A program made the translations under genes and the position numbers. Under the pieces are notes generated by a model that saw only the letters and a program-made list of their open reading frames with translations, ran no database searches and was not told the DNA's origin. 31,375 bases of DNA from a virus: positions 1 through 31,375 of the IMG/VR virus record IMGVR_UViG_3300007354_000012, one strand, 5' to 3'. Shown in pieces: positions 3,241 through 27,323 of this stretch. Each line of letters begins with the position of its first letter. Position 1 is the first letter of the stretch.

Positions 3241-5628
3241 ATGCCTCAACTCGACCTCTCCGAGATAGGGCTTTCCGGCCTGTCCCGCATGGGCGGGACC
3301 GTCTACGAAGAATTTCTGCCCCAGCTGCAGGGGCCGAAGGCTATCAAGGTCTACCGCGAGATGTCCACCAACGACCCGGTGGTCGGGGCCATCCTGTTCG
3401 CGGTGGATATGCTGCTCCGCCAGGTCTCCTGGCGCGTCGAGCCGGCCTCGCCGGAGACGCCCGACCAGGAGGCGGCGGAGTTCCTGCAGTCCTGTCTCGG
3501 CGACATGTCGGCCACGTGGGAGGACACGGTCTCCGAGATACTCTCGATGCTGGTCTACGGCTTTTCGTACCACGAGATAGTCTACAAGCGCCGACTCGGC
3601 GACCAGCGGGACCCGACGAAGCGCAGTCGCTACACCGACGGGCGTATCGGGTGGCGCAAGCTCGCCGGCCGGAGCCAGGATACCCTCTACCAGTGGGAGT
3701 TCGACGAGCACGGCGGCATCCAGGCGATGGTTCAGCAGGCCCCGCCCGACTACTCGCTCCGGCGCATCCCCATCGAGAAGGGTCTGCTCTTCCGGACCAG
3801 AGCCCACAAGGGCAGCCCGGAGGGCTACAGCGTGCTCAGGAACGCCTACCGGCCGTGGTGGATGAAGAAGCGCATCGAGGAGATCGAGGCCATCGGCATC
3901 GAGCGCGACCTCGCTGGCCTGCCCATCGCGTGGGTCCCGCCGGAGCTGCTCGGTCCGAATGCCACCGCCGAGCAGAAGGCGACCCTCGACGCCATTAAGA
4001 AAATCGTTCGGAACGTCCGCAGGGACGAGCAGGAGGGCATCGTGTTCCCCCTCGCCTACCGCGACGGCGAGAAGGCCTTCGACTTCGGGCTCCTCTCCAC
4101 CGGCGGCCGGCGCCAGTTCGACACCGATTCAGTCATCGCCCGCTACGACCAGCGGATAGCGATGACGGTGCTCTGTGATTTCATACTCTTGGGCCATGAG
4201 AAGGTTGGATCGTTTGCTCTGGCACAACCGCTTGGTTCCAAGGTATTAACGCCCACCGGCTGGACTACAATGGGGGAAATCAAGAAAGGCGATGAGGTGA
4301 TATGTCCTCTCGGTTACCGCTCGGTGGTATTAGACACCTTTGAACATGGTGTTAGGGACGTTTACCGCATATCGTTTGCGGATGGTAGAAGCGTGCTTGC
4401 AAGCAGTGACCACAAGTGGGTAGTGACGAGCAAAGAATGGCTGGAGAAGGGATTACCCGGGAAATTTCATCGTCCGCCGGCCCAAGCTCTCCCCGAACCT
4501 TCCCTAATCGATGGATATGGCATTTTAACCACCAGCGAAATCATGAATCGCATGTCTGGGAAGCGCGGGACTAGGAAATTCCATGTGCCGCGATGCGCGC
4601 CAATTCGATTCGGGGAACAATTGCCGCTGCCCATCGATCCATATGTGCTGGGCGTTATCTTGGGTGATGGGTACATTCGTGATAACGCAGGTCCCACGTT
4701 CGCCGCGACCGATGAGGAAATCCGTCGCGAAGTCGAACGAAGATTGCCAGAAGGTCATCATCTAAGCGACGCTGGTGGCAACTCGTCTGTGCCGCAATAC
4801 AGGATCAGTGGGCCAGGAAGCGGCCAAAATCAGGTGCTAAACGGATTGCGCGCTCTGGGGCTAATTGGGGCAAGGAGTCAAACAAAGTTTATCCCGCCAA
4901 TGTATCTGACTGCCTCTATTGAGGACCGCCTATGGCTGCTCCGTGGATTAATGGATACAGACGGGTACGCCGATGGTCAAATCATATTCGCCACCAACAG
5001 TGAGGGCCTTCGTGACGGTGTGGCATACTTGGCACGAAGCCTGGGTGGATGTGCGAGTATGAGCACGAAATTCACTGTGGGTTACCTATCCCCTATTACC
5101 AAGCAGTGGGTTGGTAAGCCATCTGTGGGCTACCACGTGATCATTCGTATGCCCGAAGACCTAAACCCGTTCTTCCTTACTAGGAAGGCCAGTAGAGTAA
5201 GGCCTTCCCAGAAGCGGCTAGATAGGCAGACGAGCATCGTCAGTATCGAACACATTGGACAAGAAGAGGTCCGTTGTATTGCGGTGTCGTCTCCGAGCGG
5301 CATGTACGTTACAGATGACTTCGTTCCAACACATAACTCCACCTCCAAGACGACGCTCTTTTCCACCGCCTGCTCCGCCTGGCTGGACTCCATCGCCGCC
5401 GTGCTCAACCGGCATGCCGTGCCGAGGCTGTTCGCTTTGAACGGCCTTGACACCGAGAAACTACCCCGGCTTGTGCCCGGCGAGGTGGACGCGCCCGATC
5501 TCAAAGAGCTCGGCGAGTTCGTGAAAAGCCTGGCGGGGACGGGCATGGAGCTCTTCCCCGACGACAAGCTGGAGAACTATCTCCGCCAGGCGGCCAAGCT
5601 GCCACTGAAGGAGGTCGAGGCCGTATGA
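3241..5628 (+). CDS. Portal protein (DUF935/Mu gp29-like) interrupted by an intein
   Basis: The open frame encodes 795 residues. Removing the intein (residues 328-699) leaves 423 residues, a normal DUF935 portal: an N-terminal SLxYGxS-like region (ILSMLVYGFSYHEIVYKRR), a central domain, and a joined segment LGHEKVGSFAL + STSKTTLFSTA. The last is the conserved GSFALxSSKT-type motif of the family. Portals form the ring at the unique head vertex through which DNA enters and leaves. The gene starts 4 bases after the terminase stop, and its own stop overlaps the next start (ATGA). The intein sits in the most conserved motif of the portal, where precise protein splicing is needed to make a working ring. 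Confidence 0.92.
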   Translation: MPQLDLSEIGLSGLSRMGGTVYEEFLPQLQGPKAIKVYREMSTNDPVVGAILFAVDMLLRQVSWRVEPASPETPDQEAAEFLQSCLGDMSATWEDTVSEILSMLVYGFSYHEIVYKRRLGDQRDPTKRSRYTDGRIGWRKLAGRSQDTLYQWEFDEHGGIQAMVQQAPPDYSLRRIPIEKGLLFRTRAHKGSPEGYSVLRNAYRPWWMKKRIEEIEAIGIERDLAGLPIAWVPPELLGPNATAEQKATLDAIKKIVRNVRRDEQEGIVFPLAYRDGEKAFDFGLLSTGGRRQFDTDSVIARYDQRIAMTVLCDFILLGHEKVGSFALAQPLGSKVLTPTGWTTMGEIKKGDEVICPLGYRSVVLDTFEHGVRDVYRISFADGRSVLASSDHKWVVTSKEWLEKGLPGKFHRPPAQALPEPSLIDGYGILTTSEIMNRMSGKRGTRKFHVPRCAPIRFGEQLPLPIDPYVLGVILGDGYIRDNAGPTFAATDEEIRREVERRLPEGHHLSDAGGNSSVPQYRISGPGSGQNQVLNGLRALGLIGARSQTKFIPPMYLTASIEDRLWLLRGLMDTDGYADGQIIFATNSEGLRDGVAYLARSLGGCASMSTKFTVGYLSPITKQWVGKPSVGYHVIIRMPEDLNPFFLTRKASRVRPSQKRLDRQTSIVSIEHIGQEEVRCIAVSSPSGMYVTDDFVPTHNSTSKTTLFSTACSAWLDSIAAVLNRHAVPRLFALNGLDTEKLPRLVPGEVDAPDLKELGEFVKSLAGTGMELFPDDKLENYLRQAAKLPLKEVEAV
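4222..5337 (+). mobile_element. Class 3 (WCT) intein with LAGLIDADG homing endonuclease, inside the portal gene
   Basis: The element encodes 372 residues, from Ala1 (GCA 4222) to Asn372 (AAC 5337), followed by Ser+1. It has the splicing blocks: VLTPTGW near the start, a SSDHKW block with His64 and Trp66, and a C-terminal VPTHN. Residue 1 is not a nucleophile. Instead the sequence shows Trp66 (position B:12), Cys352 where most inteins have Asp (F:4) and Thr370 (G:5), the WCT triplet of class 3 inteins, and Ser+1 as expected for that class. Two LAGLIDADG motifs (VLGVILGDGY ~142-151 and LLRGLMDTDGY ~239-249) mark a homing endonuclease. The DNA is visibly more AT-rich than the flanking portal gene, starting slightly upstream near 4180, as expected from homing with co-conversion. 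Confidence 0.9.
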
Positions 5629-22622: not shown

Positions 22623-22832
22623 ATGTCCGTTGACCTCCAGATGTGCGGCGCCCACGAGCAGGCCATCCGAGATCTCCAGCGCTGGCAAGCCGACCAGAAC
22701 GGGACGCTCAAGGAACTCCGGGAGGAGGTCGGGGCCGTCCGGCGGCTCCTCACGAGCACGCTGGTCTCGGTCGCTCTCCTCCTCGCCGGGGTCCTGATCG
22801 ATGTGGGGGTGAGACTGTGGCTCGCAAGGTAG
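22623..22832 (+). CDS. XhlA-like haemolysin/holin-associated membrane protein
   Basis: I chose ATG 22623, 12 bases after a GAGGT; TTG 22614 is too close to it. The 69-residue protein has an N-terminal amphipathic helix with heptad-like pattern (CGAHEQAIRDLQRWQADQNGT, then LKELREEVGAVRRLL) and one C-terminal membrane segment (TLVSVALLLAGVLIDVGV). This is the plan of XhlA, which works with the holin in PBSX-type lysis. It overlaps the endolysin start. Confidence 0.75.
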   Translation: MSVDLQMCGAHEQAIRDLQRWQADQNGTLKELREEVGAVRRLLTSTLVSVALLLAGVLIDVGVRLWLAR

Positions 22833-23395
22833 CGCTTGACCCCGGACACGGGGGCCGCGACCCCGGCGCCGTCGGCCCGGGCGGTATTCGGGAGGCCGAG
22901 GTCAACCTGCTGATAGCGCTCGAACTGAAGCCGGTCCTGGAGCGGGCCGGCTTCGAAGTTTTGTTAACACGCACCGGGGACAGGGAGCTCGGCCCTACGC
23001 TGGCGACCGACCTGCGGCGGCGGTCGGACATGGTCAACGATTGGGGCGCCGACGCCTGCGTCTCGATCCATTGCAACGCCTCGGGCACGGCCGACCCCGG
23101 CCGCACGGCCAACGGTATCGAGACCTACGCCCTCCCGGGCGGGCGGGCCGAGGCCTTGGCCAGGCATATCCACCGCTTCCTGGTCGTCTTCACCGGGGCG
23201 AAGGACCGAGGCGTCCGGACCAACAAGCGGTTCTGGATGTTGCGCATGACGGCGCCCCCGGCCGTCCTGGTCGAGTGCGGCTACGTCACCAACGCCGGCG
23301 AGTGCGCGCTGCTACAGGAGCACAGCTACCGCACCAAGTTGGCCCTGGCGATGGCCGCCGGCATCATGACGTGGACGGGGGAGGTGACACGCTGA
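22817..23395 (+). CDS. Endolysin, N-acetylmuramoyl-L-alanine amidase (Amidase_3)
   Basis: GTG 22817 overlaps the XhlA-like gene and follows GGGGGTGAG. The 192-residue enzyme is a single Amidase_3 domain. It has the zinc and catalytic pattern: VALDPGHGGRDPGA (His), GIREAEVNLLIA (Glu), CVSIHCNAS (His) and PAVLVECGYVTN (catalytic Glu). It cuts the bond between the sugar strand and peptide of peptidoglycan. There is no signal peptide and no cell-wall-binding domain, so it needs the holin for release. The stop overlaps the holin start. Confidence 0.92.
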   Translation: MARKVALDPGHGGRDPGAVGPGGIREAEVNLLIALELKPVLERAGFEVLLTRTGDRELGPTLATDLRRRSDMVNDWGADACVSIHCNASGTADPGRTANGIETYALPGGRAEALARHIHRFLVVFTGAKDRGVRTNKRFWMLRMTAPPAVLVECGYVTNAGECALLQEHSYRTKLALAMAAGIMTWTGEVTR

Positions 23396-23964: not shown

Positions 23965-24618
23965 CTAGAGCGATTCCGGTGGCCCTTCCTCCCACGCCTC
24001 CGAGAAGTCCTTGTCGGCGAACAGTTCGGCCAGTCCCGTTATCTGCTTCAGCCTTAGCACCTCGTCAGGTTCCATGCCTAATTCGCGCCCGATCTTCTCG
24101 TCGCTCCAGTTCCGCCTCGAGAGTTCCAGGACTATGTCACTCATCCCCGTCACGGCGTGTCTGCCCCTGGCCCGGTTGTGGCGGATGGTGGCCGCGATTC
24201 TATCGGCCCTGTCGCTCCGGTCCGCATTGATGAGCGTGATTGGCAAATGGCCCCGCAGGCGTTCGCGGACATCCGGGCACTCACGGCCCACGCGGTTGCG
24301 GTGGAAGCCGTCGACTACCTCGATATGGTCGCGCTCGTCAAAGCCGACGATAGGCTGGGTGTAGCCGTCCTGTCGAATGGAGTGCTGGAGAAGACGCATC
24401 TCGGGCGGGGCGACCACGTTGGGGTTATAATCGTTGGCCTCCACAGCCTCGGCCGGGAACCACAGCACGCAATCGACGGGTTCGCGGGCGAAGGGGCTGG
24501 CGAGATGCAAGCGCCAGCGGATGGCGTTGAGCACCTCAATCCGCTTGCCCTCCGGCACGGCCGCAAGCGCGGCGACGAGTTCCTCGACCCGCTCGGCTAT
24601 CCCAGGCGGAAGCCCCAT
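23965..24618 (-). CDS. ParB-like protein (IbrB type), partner of the PAPS reductase-like protein
   Basis: I chose ATG 24618, which overlaps the end of the upstream reductase gene by 22 bases and gives 217 residues; a longer start would overlap by about 145. Residues ~1-30 are helical. The ParB/Srx fold follows: VEANDYNPN, SIRQDGYTQPIVGFDE and the core IEVVDGFHRNRVGRE, then HLPITLI and a helix-turn-helix-like end (VLELSRRNWSDEKIGRELGMEPDEVLRLKQ). IbrB proteins pair with IbrA PAPS reductase-like proteins in phages and islands. In E. coli the pair activates immunoglobulin-binding genes; the biochemical activity is not settled. It is the last gene of a minus-strand operon. Confidence 0.8.
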   Translation of the reverse strand: MGLPPGIAERVEELVAALAAVPEGKRIEVLNAIRWRLHLASPFAREPVDCVLWFPAEAVEANDYNPNVVAPPEMRLLQHSIRQDGYTQPIVGFDERDHIEVVDGFHRNRVGRECPDVRERLRGHLPITLINADRSDRADRIAATIRHNRARGRHAVTGMSDIVLELSRRNWSDEKIGRELGMEPDEVLRLKQITGLAELFADKDFSEAWEEGPPESL

Positions 24619-25805
24619 CTCTCGCGCCGGCGCCGCATGATCCTGAGGTACTTTTGGTAAGCCTCGCTCTTCGTCTGGCTGAAAGAGAGTCCCTTGCACC
24701 AGTAGTCGTTCCGGAGCAGAGCCTTGCATACTCGACGCCACGAAGGTACCTCCCTAGCCGCCTCCTGTTCTGCGGGGGCCGCATCGGGTATCCCGTTGGG
24801 GTATCCCCTTTCCTCCCACCAGTGCAGGAAGACGGCGATCTTGTTGGCGAAGTGTTCCCTTGTCCGCTCTGGCATGCTGGCAAGCAGCAGGTTCGCGAAC
24901 TGCTGCCACGTCAGGTGGTCCGGCTTCGTTATCCTGAGCCTGCCCAGGATGTTCCCGGACTCCTGAGCGTAGAGAGCGCCCTGGTTCGCGCCGTTCACGC
25001 GGGCGACTATCTTCACCCAGGTCTCGGGCTCGATGACGTGGAAAAGCCAGAGTCCCTTGCGCTGGTCGTCCCCGTAGGGTTGGCAGATTCGCATCTGGTG
25101 GATGGTCAGGCCGGCCTGGTGCATCAGATCGTAGATACGGTTGTAAGGCCTCCCGGTCTTGGCGTTGTATACCCAGACGTCCTGGGTCCGCCAGTCGTAA
25201 ATGGGGTAGACGTTGTAGCAGTAGCCGCCCGTCCAGGTCGTCCAGAGCTTGTTGCTCATATGAGCCTTCTTGGGATTTGCCACCGTGCGGTAGCGGTTGA
25301 GAGACTCGTCAGCTCGGATGCCCACGAACGACGCGCAGAGCTTGCCCCCGGCGTACCACTCGTTGAAGGCCGGCACGAACTCTTCGAACTCCATGGCGTA
25401 GCGGTAAAAGGGGAAGAACCGCCGGTCGGTGATGGCCGTCGGGGGCGGCTGGCGGACCCACTCGACCCCGTCCTCCCAGCATATCCACCGGGGTTGGAAC
25501 TGGCTGACCGCGTTGCGGAGGACAACCGGCAGGCAGACCCAGTAGGGTTCGATGTGGTCGCGGTAGAGGTCGTACGTGGCCTGGATGTGCTCGATGGTGA
25601 GCCTGTACTGGCCCTCCAGGTCGATGAAAAGGACCCCGACCTTCCGCCCGCGCCGGATAGCCTCCTCCATGACTAGGTGCAACATCACTGTTGAATCCTT
25701 GCCGCCCGAGAAGGACACGCAAGCCCGAGGGAAGTTGTCGAATGTCCAGGCTATCCGTTGCCGGGCGGCATCGTAGACGTTGATACCGAGCGGGACTTTA
25801 GCCAC
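24597..25805 (-). CDS. PAPS reductase-like ATP pyrophosphatase (IbrA type)
   Basis: GTG 25805 follows GGGGGAAG. The 402-residue product matches the usual IbrA length. It has the PP-loop SFSGGKDSTVMLHL (about residues 31-44) that binds ATP, then DLEGQYRLTIEHI, a WTGGYCYNVYPIYDWRTQDVWVY block typical of the DUF3440 branch, ASFVGIRADESLNRYR, and a long C-terminal half with QRKGLWLFHVIEPETW and WWEERGYPNGIP. Family members adenylate a substrate; sulfur reduction is not shown for this branch. It overlaps the upstream 140-residue gene by 55 bases and the ParB-like gene downstream, so the set is translationally coupled. Confidence 0.85.
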   Translation of the reverse strand: MAKVPLGINVYDAARQRIAWTFDNFPRACVSFSGGKDSTVMLHLVMEEAIRRGRKVGVLFIDLEGQYRLTIEHIQATYDLYRDHIEPYWVCLPVVLRNAVSQFQPRWICWEDGVEWVRQPPPTAITDRRFFPFYRYAMEFEEFVPAFNEWYAGGKLCASFVGIRADESLNRYRTVANPKKAHMSNKLWTTWTGGYCYNVYPIYDWRTQDVWVYNAKTGRPYNRIYDLMHQAGLTIHQMRICQPYGDDQRKGLWLFHVIEPETWVKIVARVNGANQGALYAQESGNILGRLRITKPDHLTWQQFANLLLASMPERTREHFANKIAVFLHWWEERGYPNGIPDAAPAEQEAAREVPSWRRVCKALLRNDYWCKGLSFSQTKSEAYQKYLRIMRRRRERWGFRLG

Positions 25806-26173
25806 GCGAGCACTTCCCCCTCGGCCATGGTGATGATGTCACCGTCCAGGCCCACCCGGCAGAAGTAGCGGTCCGTGCGGTTCCAGGAGCGCGGCGAAGA
25901 GACCTCGTAGACCTTGCCCTCGTCGAGTTCGTAGTAGGCGTAGACCCCGCGCGTCCCGACGCTGTTGGCCTGGCGGTAATCCTTCTTGCAGAGCAGGAAA
26001 CGACGGGCAAACTTGTACCGGGGGTCAAGGCCAGTAATCTCGGCGGCCCAGTACCGGTTCCGGAATGACCCCGTGCCGCCGGTGAGCCTATCGAGGAACC
26101 GCCACCAAAGCTGGCCCTCGGGCGACAGACCGTGATTGTCTCCGATACACTCAACCCTGACGAGGGCCTTCAT
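25751..26173 (-). CDS. Unknown companion protein of the IbrA/IbrB-like pair (140 aa)
   Basis: ATG 26173 lies inside the end of the preceding small gene. The product has features of a real globular protein: LSPEGQLWWRFLDRLTGG, NRYWAAEITGLDPRYKFAR, GVYAYYELDEGKVYEVSSPRS, DRYFCRVGLDGDIITM. It is rich in aromatic residues and has no membrane segment. I do not recognise a family. The 55-base overlap with the reductase gene and shared direction point to a joint role. Confidence 0.65.
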   Translation of the reverse strand: MKALVRVECIGDNHGLSPEGQLWWRFLDRLTGGTGSFRNRYWAAEITGLDPRYKFARRFLLCKKDYRQANSVGTRGVYAYYELDEGKVYEVSSPRSWNRTDRYFCRVGLDGDIITMAEGEVLAWLKSRSVSTSTMPPGNG

Positions 26174-26297
26174 ATCTCTTCACCAGAATTTCGTTCAGCA
26201 GCTGGTTCAGAGACTTTCCTGATGCTGCGGCCTCCTGCCTGATCCTTTCGGCCAGGGACGGAGGGACCCGAAGATAGATCGTTTCGGTGGCCGCCAT
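26151..26297 (-). CDS. Small ribbon-helix-helix (Arc/CopG-type) DNA-binding protein, 48 aa
   Basis: ATG 26297 overlaps the stop of the preceding gene (TGATG). The protein has the ribbon-helix-helix layout: a short strand with alternating pattern (ETIYLRVPPS, residues ~5-14), helix A (LAERIRQEAAASGKS), and helix B starting with the usual SLNQLLNEILV. A basic tail follows. Such proteins act as dimers and often repress their own operon or serve as antitoxins. No toxin gene is obvious beside it. Candidate targets are the GCTTGCAAGC palindrome on the operon promoter or the TGAG/CTCA palindromes further upstream. Confidence 0.75.
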   Translation of the reverse strand: MAATETIYLRVPPSLAERIRQEAAASGKSLNQLLNEILVKRYEGPRQG

Positions 26298-26557
26298 CAG
26301 CGGTTGCCTTCCATCTCGGCGAACAGTTCGTAGCCCGGGAAGTCCTCGGGCTGCTTCTGGCCAAAGCGGAGATCGCCCATATCTCGGATGAGCTCGGCCC
26401 GCCTGGCTATCATCCCGGCAAGTTCGCCCAACGCTGTGTTACGTCGGACCGTGCGCTCGATAGGGGCAGCGGCTATCCGGGAGCACGCGTTGTTGACCTG
26501 GCCGTCTAGCTTAGCGATCCTCATATCCAGGTAGGCGATCATCTCTTCGCGTGTCAT
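26297..26557 (-). CDS. Small helical protein, first gene of the minus-strand operon (86 aa)
   Basis: ATG 26557 lies after AGGGAG and AGGAG; ATG 26566 three codons earlier is also possible. The protein is nearly all helix: TREEMIAYLDMRIAKLDGQ, an arginine-rich middle (APIERTVRRNTALGELAGMIA), and a short acidic end (PEDFPGYELFAEMEG). A coiled coil or helical bundle is likely. No known family is recognised. It starts about 25 bases downstream of a good promoter and is coupled to the ribbon-helix-helix gene. Confidence 0.6.
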   Translation of the reverse strand: MTREEMIAYLDMRIAKLDGQVNNACSRIAAAPIERTVRRNTALGELAGMIARRAELIRDMGDLRFGQKQPEDFPGYELFAEMEGNR

Positions 26558-26588
26558 GCTCCTCATCTCCCTTTGCGTCCTCGGACCA

Positions 26589-26617
26589 ATTATACAAGCC
26601 CGGCTGCTTGCTTGCAA
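26589..26617 (-). promoter_or_regulatory. Promoter of the IbrA/IbrB-like operon with palindrome over the -35
   Basis: On the minus strand TTGCAA (26612-26617), a 17-base spacer and a perfect TATAAT (26589-26594) form a strong sigma-A-type promoter. A perfect palindrome GCTTGCAAGC (26610-26619) covers the -35 and is a likely operator. Confidence 0.8.
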
Positions 26618-26790
26618 GCGTCATGGGGACTACTTGCCTCCAAACGTCGTCCACCTGCGTCTCTTCCCAGCAAGCTTCTCAGTCCTCAGCCATAAACAGT
26701 CACTTTCGTGTACCACCAGCAAAACCGCAGGTAAACGACGCGCTAGGAGGCTCTAGGACGGGCCGAAGACGTGGGGCCTTTATGATTGGC

Positions 26791-26936
26791 CGTGAGGGAT
26801 TCTCACGGCGCCTCCTACGGGCTCCCTGGAGGACCGGTCTCCGCTGGCCCCGCAAAAAATCGTGAGAAATCCTCACCGAACCTGTTGACATTACTCACGC
26901 CGCCGACTACAATAAGGTTGTGAGAGATACTCACGG
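26791..26936 (+). promoter_or_regulatory. Three full operators and a half-site, GTGAG-N6-CTCAC type
   Basis: Palindromes CGTGAGGGATTCTCACG (26791-26807), CGTGAGAAATCCTCACCG (26861-26878) and GTGAGAGATACTCACGG (26920-26936) share a common plan. A half-site ACTCACG (26893-26899) lies between the -35 and -10 of the next promoter. The last full site covers the expected transcription start. The binding protein is not identified; a phage-encoded repressor is likely. The gene-free stretch 26618-26884 otherwise shows nothing I can name. Confidence 0.75.
26885..26913 (+). promoter_or_regulatory. Strong promoter for the 26949 gene
   Basis: Consensus TTGACA (26885-26890), a 17-base spacer and TACAAT (26908-26913). 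An operator half-site lies in the spacer and a full palindrome just downstream, so the promoter is probably tightly repressed. Confidence 0.88.
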
Positions 26937-26948
26937 GAGGCGAGACCG

Positions 26949-27323
26949 ATGGCCCGGTTCGAATGGACGACCGAGAGGGGTAACCTGGTGGCTATCGAGG
27001 TTGAAAGGGTCGAGTACACCGTGCATCGCGACCTCGACGGCGAGGGCTACGAGGAAAAACGTGCCGAGAAGCGCATCACGCGGATGACCCTGAATGGCGC
27101 CGAGGTCGAGAGCTCCCGGTTCGACCACCACCAGGGCAACACCTGCGTCAAGTTCCGGCTCGGTGGGCGCGAGGGCCTAGCCCTCCTGCCGACCGACATT
27201 AGCGAGAGCATTTGGGCCGAGGAGCGGGCCGCGCAAGCCGCCGCCTCCGCCCGGGCCGAGAAGCTCGACGCCGAGCGCCGGAAGTTCGAGCGGTTCCTGG
27301 GCGCAGGCGAGACCCACAGGTAG
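26949..27323 (+). CDS. Hypothetical protein under a strong regulated promoter (124 aa)
   Basis: ATG 26949 follows GGGAGGCGAG. The first ~80 residues look beta-rich (FEWTTERGNLVAIEVERVEYTV, KRITRMTLNGAEVESSRFDH, NTCVKFRLGGREGLALL). The last ~40 are one long charged helix rich in Ala, Glu and Arg (EERAAQAAASARAEKLDAER). No known family is recognised. Its promoter is among the best in the window and carries several operators. That is unusual for a gene of no importance to the phage and argues for a role expressed only when a repressor is lifted. Confidence 0.75.
   Translation: MARFEWTTERGNLVAIEVERVEYTVHRDLDGEGYEEKRAEKRITRMTLNGAEVESSRFDHHQGNTCVKFRLGGREGLALLPTDISESIWAEERAAQAAASARAEKLDAERRKFERFLGAGETHR

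Follow-up and report, generated by a model that had tools for sequence, protein, structure and literature searches.

An IbrA/IbrB gene pair with a third partner, P or Q, in phage genomes

The stretch of phage DNA analysed here (the window: the whole 31,375-base virus record IMGVR_UViG_3300007354_000012, probably a fragment) carries on its minus strand an operon encoding IbrA, IbrB and a 140-residue protein, the family of which is called P in this report. The best reading of the data is that IbrA and IbrB form a phage-borne complex, which probably acts on nucleic acid and has an exchangeable third subunit: either P or Q, a helical family of ~125 residues. The three-gene linkage of P, IbrA and IbrB is, from gene order in sequenced loci, near certain. 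The IbrA/IbrB pair itself is already known and commonly annotated; the organisation with a third subunit is provisionally considered new, as no description of P or Q as partners was found in the searched open literature (subscription papers and preprints lie outside its coverage).

The gene of P (25751-26173) is followed by that of IbrA (402 amino acids, 24597-25805), a phosphoadenosine phosphosulfate (PAPS) reductase-type PP-loop ATP pyrophosphatase with a DUF3440 domain, and by that of IbrB (217 amino acids, 23965-24618), a protein with a ParB/Srx-fold domain. The P and IbrA genes overlap by 55 nucleotides (nt) and the IbrA and IbrB genes by 22 nt. The start of IbrB is corrected to ATG 24618, which is probable rather than GTG 24741: the open reading frame (ORF) reaches the latter codon, but the alignment of the family starts only past it.

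The linkage was found from both sides. IbrA was used to scan 2.9 million viral contigs, and the best 80 of the 505 relatives obtained were kept as IbrA-seeded loci; distant PAPS-reductase-like phage proteins (Flavobacterium and many Mycobacterium phages) lie outside this partner survey. In 56 of the 80 loci (55 on a later recount) P directly precedes IbrA and has the same orientation. Reciprocally, a profile search of viral and genome collections made with a reduced P alignment placed IbrA directly downstream of P in 47 of 48 P-seeded loci; one further P locus from an earlier single-sequence scan is also devoid of IbrA. The two genes share a strand in all 109 cases compared, and their ends are at most 100 nt apart in 106 of them. 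Neighbourhood clustering revealed no gene family beyond a few helicases that recurs widely around this core. Since the linkage is reciprocal and persists in very diverged loci, there is a strong case that P is a real third component of the IbrA/IbrB module. The original prediction had regarded all five genes of the operon as one functional unit. Repeated linkage bears this out for P, IbrA and IbrB, i.e. for three genes of five; of the two leading genes, encoding a ribbon-helix-helix (RHH) protein and an 86-residue protein, no homologue was detected in any of the 80 IbrA-seeded neighbourhoods.

In loci without P, Q usually takes the place before IbrA or adjoins IbrB. Q is present in 21 of the 80 IbrA-seeded loci, and four contain neither family; in two loci (L105:3813-4958 and L106:326-1468) IbrB and Q form one fusion protein, with Q at the C-terminal end. 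A Q-seeded search gave 546 relatives, 80 of which were kept. IbrA lies near Q in 77 of them and P in none, the gene order being A-B-Q, B-Q-A or Q-A-B (A and B standing for IbrA and IbrB). All six phage records with Q also contain IbrA. P and Q were not found together in any of the 160 loci. At least two P/Q exchanges are forced by well-supported branches of the IbrA tree, bootstrap trees require four to five, and none of them allows a single change. A Fisher test of the exclusion was set aside because it ignores shared ancestry, and a tree-aware test on independent pairs was not significant, the pairs being too few. That P and Q are alternative partners of IbrA/IbrB is well supported; that they are never compatible is not proved.

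P and Q can hardly be taken for one diverged family: profile comparison gives a probability of 0.1%, and the AlphaFold2 model of P is mostly beta (predicted local distance difference test, pLDDT, 89) whereas that of Q is all alpha (pLDDT 96). Foldseek found no significant match to either model in PDB, and a second comparison was also without a convincing match; this does not make either fold a new one. Three residues of P are invariant (E8, R75 and Y89), and the P protein of the window matches PHROG 26647, a family with no assigned function. Four members of Q were compared with PHROG and none matched; Pfam gave nothing meaningful for Q and nothing convincing for the fused portions of the long P proteins. 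The possibility that P is a nuclease of the AFV1 ORF157 type (DUF3258) was considered and rejected on profile comparison (hhalign probabilities 0.2% and 0.4%). The structural match is weak (VIA-align Z 5.5 over 83 residues, root-mean-square deviation 4.1), below the level that separates relatives.

IbrA keeps the catalytic motifs of the PAPS reductase/ATP-pyrophosphatase superfamily together with conserved cysteines. It matches PF11922 (DUF3440; 125.8 bits, cut-off 25, E 2e-36) and PF01507 (PAPS_reduct; 60.3 bits, cut-off 22.5, E 3e-16). The motifs SGGKDS (PP-loop), GIR..ES and DW..D.W are conserved over 117 homologues, and the PP-loop active site is retained in at least 95% of them. SGGKDS is present in the window protein, and its S33, G35, K36, D37 and S38 are invariant (alignment A6). 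Cys241, Cys360 and Cys370 are found in 110, 101 and 106 of the 117 homologues, respectively (86-94%). The nearest solved structures in a PDB profile search are FAD synthase, ATP sulfurylase CysD and PAPS reductase. IbrA of the window is 54.7% identical to IbrA of Escherichia phage PhiR5_2.

IbrB can be assigned, from its sequence, to the ParB/Srx superfamily with a phosphate-binding-type DGxHR motif (DGFHR in the window). It matches the ParB-like PHROG 2159 (E 1.1e-70), its profile (alignment A7) matches the ParB structure 4umk (E 1.5e-6), and D103, G104, H106 and R107 of the motif are invariant in a 28-row alignment. The score against Pfam ParB_N (15.5 bits) is under the cut-off of 26.3. A C-terminal helix-turn-helix is predicted from conserved residues of this region. 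The family calls made earlier for the RHH protein, IbrA and IbrB hold.

The pair is widespread. Besides the relatives in viral contigs, homologues occur in 216 phage records, and pairs were found on 591 plasmid records, mostly of Klebsiella and Escherichia; on the examined plasmid L166 it has fec genes on one side and iro genes on the other. A Heimdallarchaeal virus is also reported to carry IbrA/IbrB (PMC8813620). Streptococcus and Lactobacillus phages (L087, L159 and L160) carry a helicase gene directly before IbrA, between lysin and Cro/antirepressor genes; the one scanned, in L087, is of SNF2 type. In Streptococcus phage CHPC877 the IbrA region begins with a gene for a clear member of PF07410. 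Genes of replication or recombination surround the pair in several other phages. Two different plasmids of Streptomyces (L162 and L163) have the order P-DUF3440-ParB beside type I-E CRISPR cas genes.

PP-loop superfamily enzymes activate their substrates with ATP, often ahead of sulfur transfer, and the ParB fold is a nucleoside triphosphate (NTP)-binding switch. A survey of ParB-fold relatives includes CTP, ATP and GTP binders (PMC12704722). On this basis P, IbrA and IbrB may work as one complex, in which IbrB, gated by NTP, would sit on DNA and recruit IbrA. IbrA would use ATP to activate (adenylate) a nucleic-acid target or one bound to nucleic acid, and its cysteines could perhaps thiolate the same target. 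P or Q would serve as an adaptor that sets the target or the partner, and (pro)phage DNA would as a result be expressed differently or be protected. Such an outcome fits the role of IbrA/IbrB as activators of prophage eib genes: according to the title of Sandt et al. 2002, cited in PMC8065619, these genes are activated by the IbrAB island of E. coli ECOR-9. We give the mechanism, with P, IbrA and IbrB as one complex acting on nucleic acid, a probability of roughly 0.4; its chemistry and purpose are inferred. A broader proposal, which we hold to be doubtful, is that IbrA/IbrB with P or Q form a so far undescribed class of mobile complexes that modify nucleic acid. P and Q would then be alternative specificity adaptors of a catalytic-plus-clamp core carried by phages across many phyla and used for counter-defence or gene switching.

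Several observations weigh against the single-complex mechanism. Linkage indicates joint function and is not proof of a complex. No enzyme of known substrate closely resembles IbrA, and a conserved companion that would supply sulfur was not seen around it in the survey. P occurs without IbrA in loci L082 and L141 and in Streptococcus phage PH15. The enterobacterial IbrAB pairs of Escherichia phage PhiR5_2 and of a Klebsiella plasmid contain neither P nor Q, and a third component is therefore not essential everywhere. Finally, the presence of P or Q largely tracks IbrA phylogeny, so few independent events stand behind the mutual exclusion.

The same data can be read in other ways. IbrA/IbrB might act mainly as a transcription co-activator of host or (pro)phage genes, for which P or Q would be a cofactor, and make no stable modification of nucleic acid. 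Activation of eib by the ECOR-9 island is the sole experimental role found (Sandt et al. 2002, cited in PMC8065619); IbrB combines a ParB-like domain with a predicted helix-turn-helix, and a pair of the same kind in E. coli, ybdNM, is repressed by CitR (PMC9068703). However, the retention of the PP-loop site implies catalysis, needless for a pure regulator, and a spread over unrelated phages and plasmids misfits a single regulon; we consider this explanation rather unlikely. Of comparably low probability is a role as defence or counter-defence cargo, in which the module would protect the host of the prophage from other phages or the phage DNA from restriction. The place of the operon between lysis and lysogeny genes would suit it, as would the function in defence of the PP-loop enzymes DndC, SspD and BrxP, to which IbrA has weak and partial PADLOC matches, the cas genes beside the module on the Streptomyces plasmids and the cysH-like genes that accompany type IV-B CRISPR systems (PMC8175902). 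Yet no PADLOC model matched over its full length. Neighbourhood clustering showed no recurrent nuclease or restriction partner, and in the several phages noted above the surroundings of the pair are replication or recombination genes rather than cargo.

Two further explanations appear very improbable. The annotation of IbrA as phosphoadenosine phosphosulfate reductase in PHROG and GenBank would make it an auxiliary sulfur-metabolism gene, the product of which reduces PAPS or adenosine phosphosulfate. IbrA scores far under the CysH and PAPS reductase cut-offs (39.8 against 254.2 bits and 33.6 against 165.1 bits), an ECGLH-type catalytic cysteine motif was not seen in its sequence, and the constant pairing with a ParB-like protein also speaks against this reading. 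It is just as hard to accept that the whole operon works as one unit in which the RHH and 86-residue proteins are obligatory. Every junction overlaps and a single promoter is present, but the absence of homologues of both proteins from the 80-locus survey speaks against them as members of the core module, and the gene upstream of P varies among phages. The preferred reading remains the IbrA-IbrB complex with P or Q as third subunit.

No homologue of either of the two leading genes was detectable around IbrA, and the pair is best regarded as a local leader with a regulatory role. The first (26297-26557) encodes the 86-residue protein, which has no match in Pfam, PHROG, NCBIfam or PADLOC (scanned as a longer ORF of 106 residues). 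The second (26151-26297) encodes a 48-residue protein of RHH (HicB/CopG) type according to its match to PF05534, the HicB family (29.1 bits, cut-off 21); it is a probable local regulator and may control its own operon. In locus L113 a different protein occupies the RHH place; it is RHH-like by eye and has no Pfam match. The two leading genes overlap by 1 nt (TGATG coupling), and the RHH gene overlaps that of P by 23 nt. All five minus-strand ORFs (23965-26557) and all overlaps between them were confirmed as originally described. Besides that of IbrB, one other start needed amendment: the first codon of the small gene is ATG 26557, and 26617 is the end of the -35 element.

A sigma-70-like promoter, TTGCAA-17-TATAAT (26617-26589, minus strand), precedes the operon. 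It matches the consensus at 10 of 12 positions and is one of three promoter-like matches in the region, where 0.6 were expected. The palindrome predicted over its -35 element is present as well (GCTTGCAAGC, 26610-26619), and a second exact copy is found at 4395. With only 10 bp it is weak evidence, and the idea of an RHH operator, resting on this single palindrome, is accordingly weak. Beyond the operon, an early gene at 26949-27323 is preceded by a strong promoter on the plus strand, TTGACA-17-TACAAT (26885-26913), with three exact copies of GTGAG-N5-CTCAC around it (26792-26806, 26862-26876 and 26920-26934), likely operators of the phage repressor. A protein (MTTYKWTTEKG...) similar to the 124-residue product of this gene is encoded ahead of P in L006 and in two more loci.

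The setting between lysis and integration genes was predicted correctly. A plus-strand endolysin gene (22643-23395) precedes the operon, and past it follow in order the divergent early gene, an excisionase-like gene and genes for an integrase, an ImmA-like metalloprotease and a CI-like repressor. At 100% identity, the window matches part of a contig of 18 kb from the Bacillota metagenome-assembled genome isolate SURF_36 (L090); as this contig begins at the last base of the window, it supplies no flanking host sequence. Elsewhere in the window, the portal gene (3241-5628) contains an intein-like insert: its N-terminal part matches the Mu-type portal, and the later parts match LAGLIDADG and homing-endonuclease domains.

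Studies confined to IbrA and IbrB may have overlooked a component required in most phage versions close to that of the window. With P and Q named, two-protein and three-protein forms can be compared, which could show what is selected by the third subunit.

Among known families, PF07410 (Phage_Gp111), named from a Streptococcus thermophilus phage, is distantly related to P: it is matched by 11 of 44 P relatives (best E 2e-9), though the P protein of the window does not reach its cut-off and has no other Pfam match. Dnd phosphorothioation resembles the window operon in combining a PP-loop sulfurtransferase, DndC, with a ParB-superfamily protein, DndB, and a likeness to Dnd and Ssp systems had been suggested. 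In contrast to Dnd, the operon has no DndA, DndD or DndE, and the DndC equivalog model matches IbrA only at residues 161-223 with 29.6 bits against a cut-off of 290.4. The operon contains no Dnd, Ssp or BREX partner and no dndA/B/D/E-type family recurs in neighbourhood clustering; with partial matches only, membership in these systems was rejected. The CysH-like accessory gene of type IV-B CRISPR systems is, like IbrA, a PAPS-reductase-like gene on mobile elements (PMC8175902), a likeness in description; the window module lacks csf genes. E. coli K-12 ybdN-ybdM likewise joins a PAPS reductase/DUF3440 protein and a ParB-like protein in one operon, but it is chromosomal and is controlled by the LysR regulator CitR (PMC9068703). 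Closest in arrangement is the IbrAB island of E. coli ECOR-9 and phage PhiR5_2, in which the DUF3440 PP-loop protein is followed, as in the window, by an overlapping ParB-like protein; the enterobacterial pairs that were checked stand without P or Q, whereas the window operon also includes P, ahead of IbrA.

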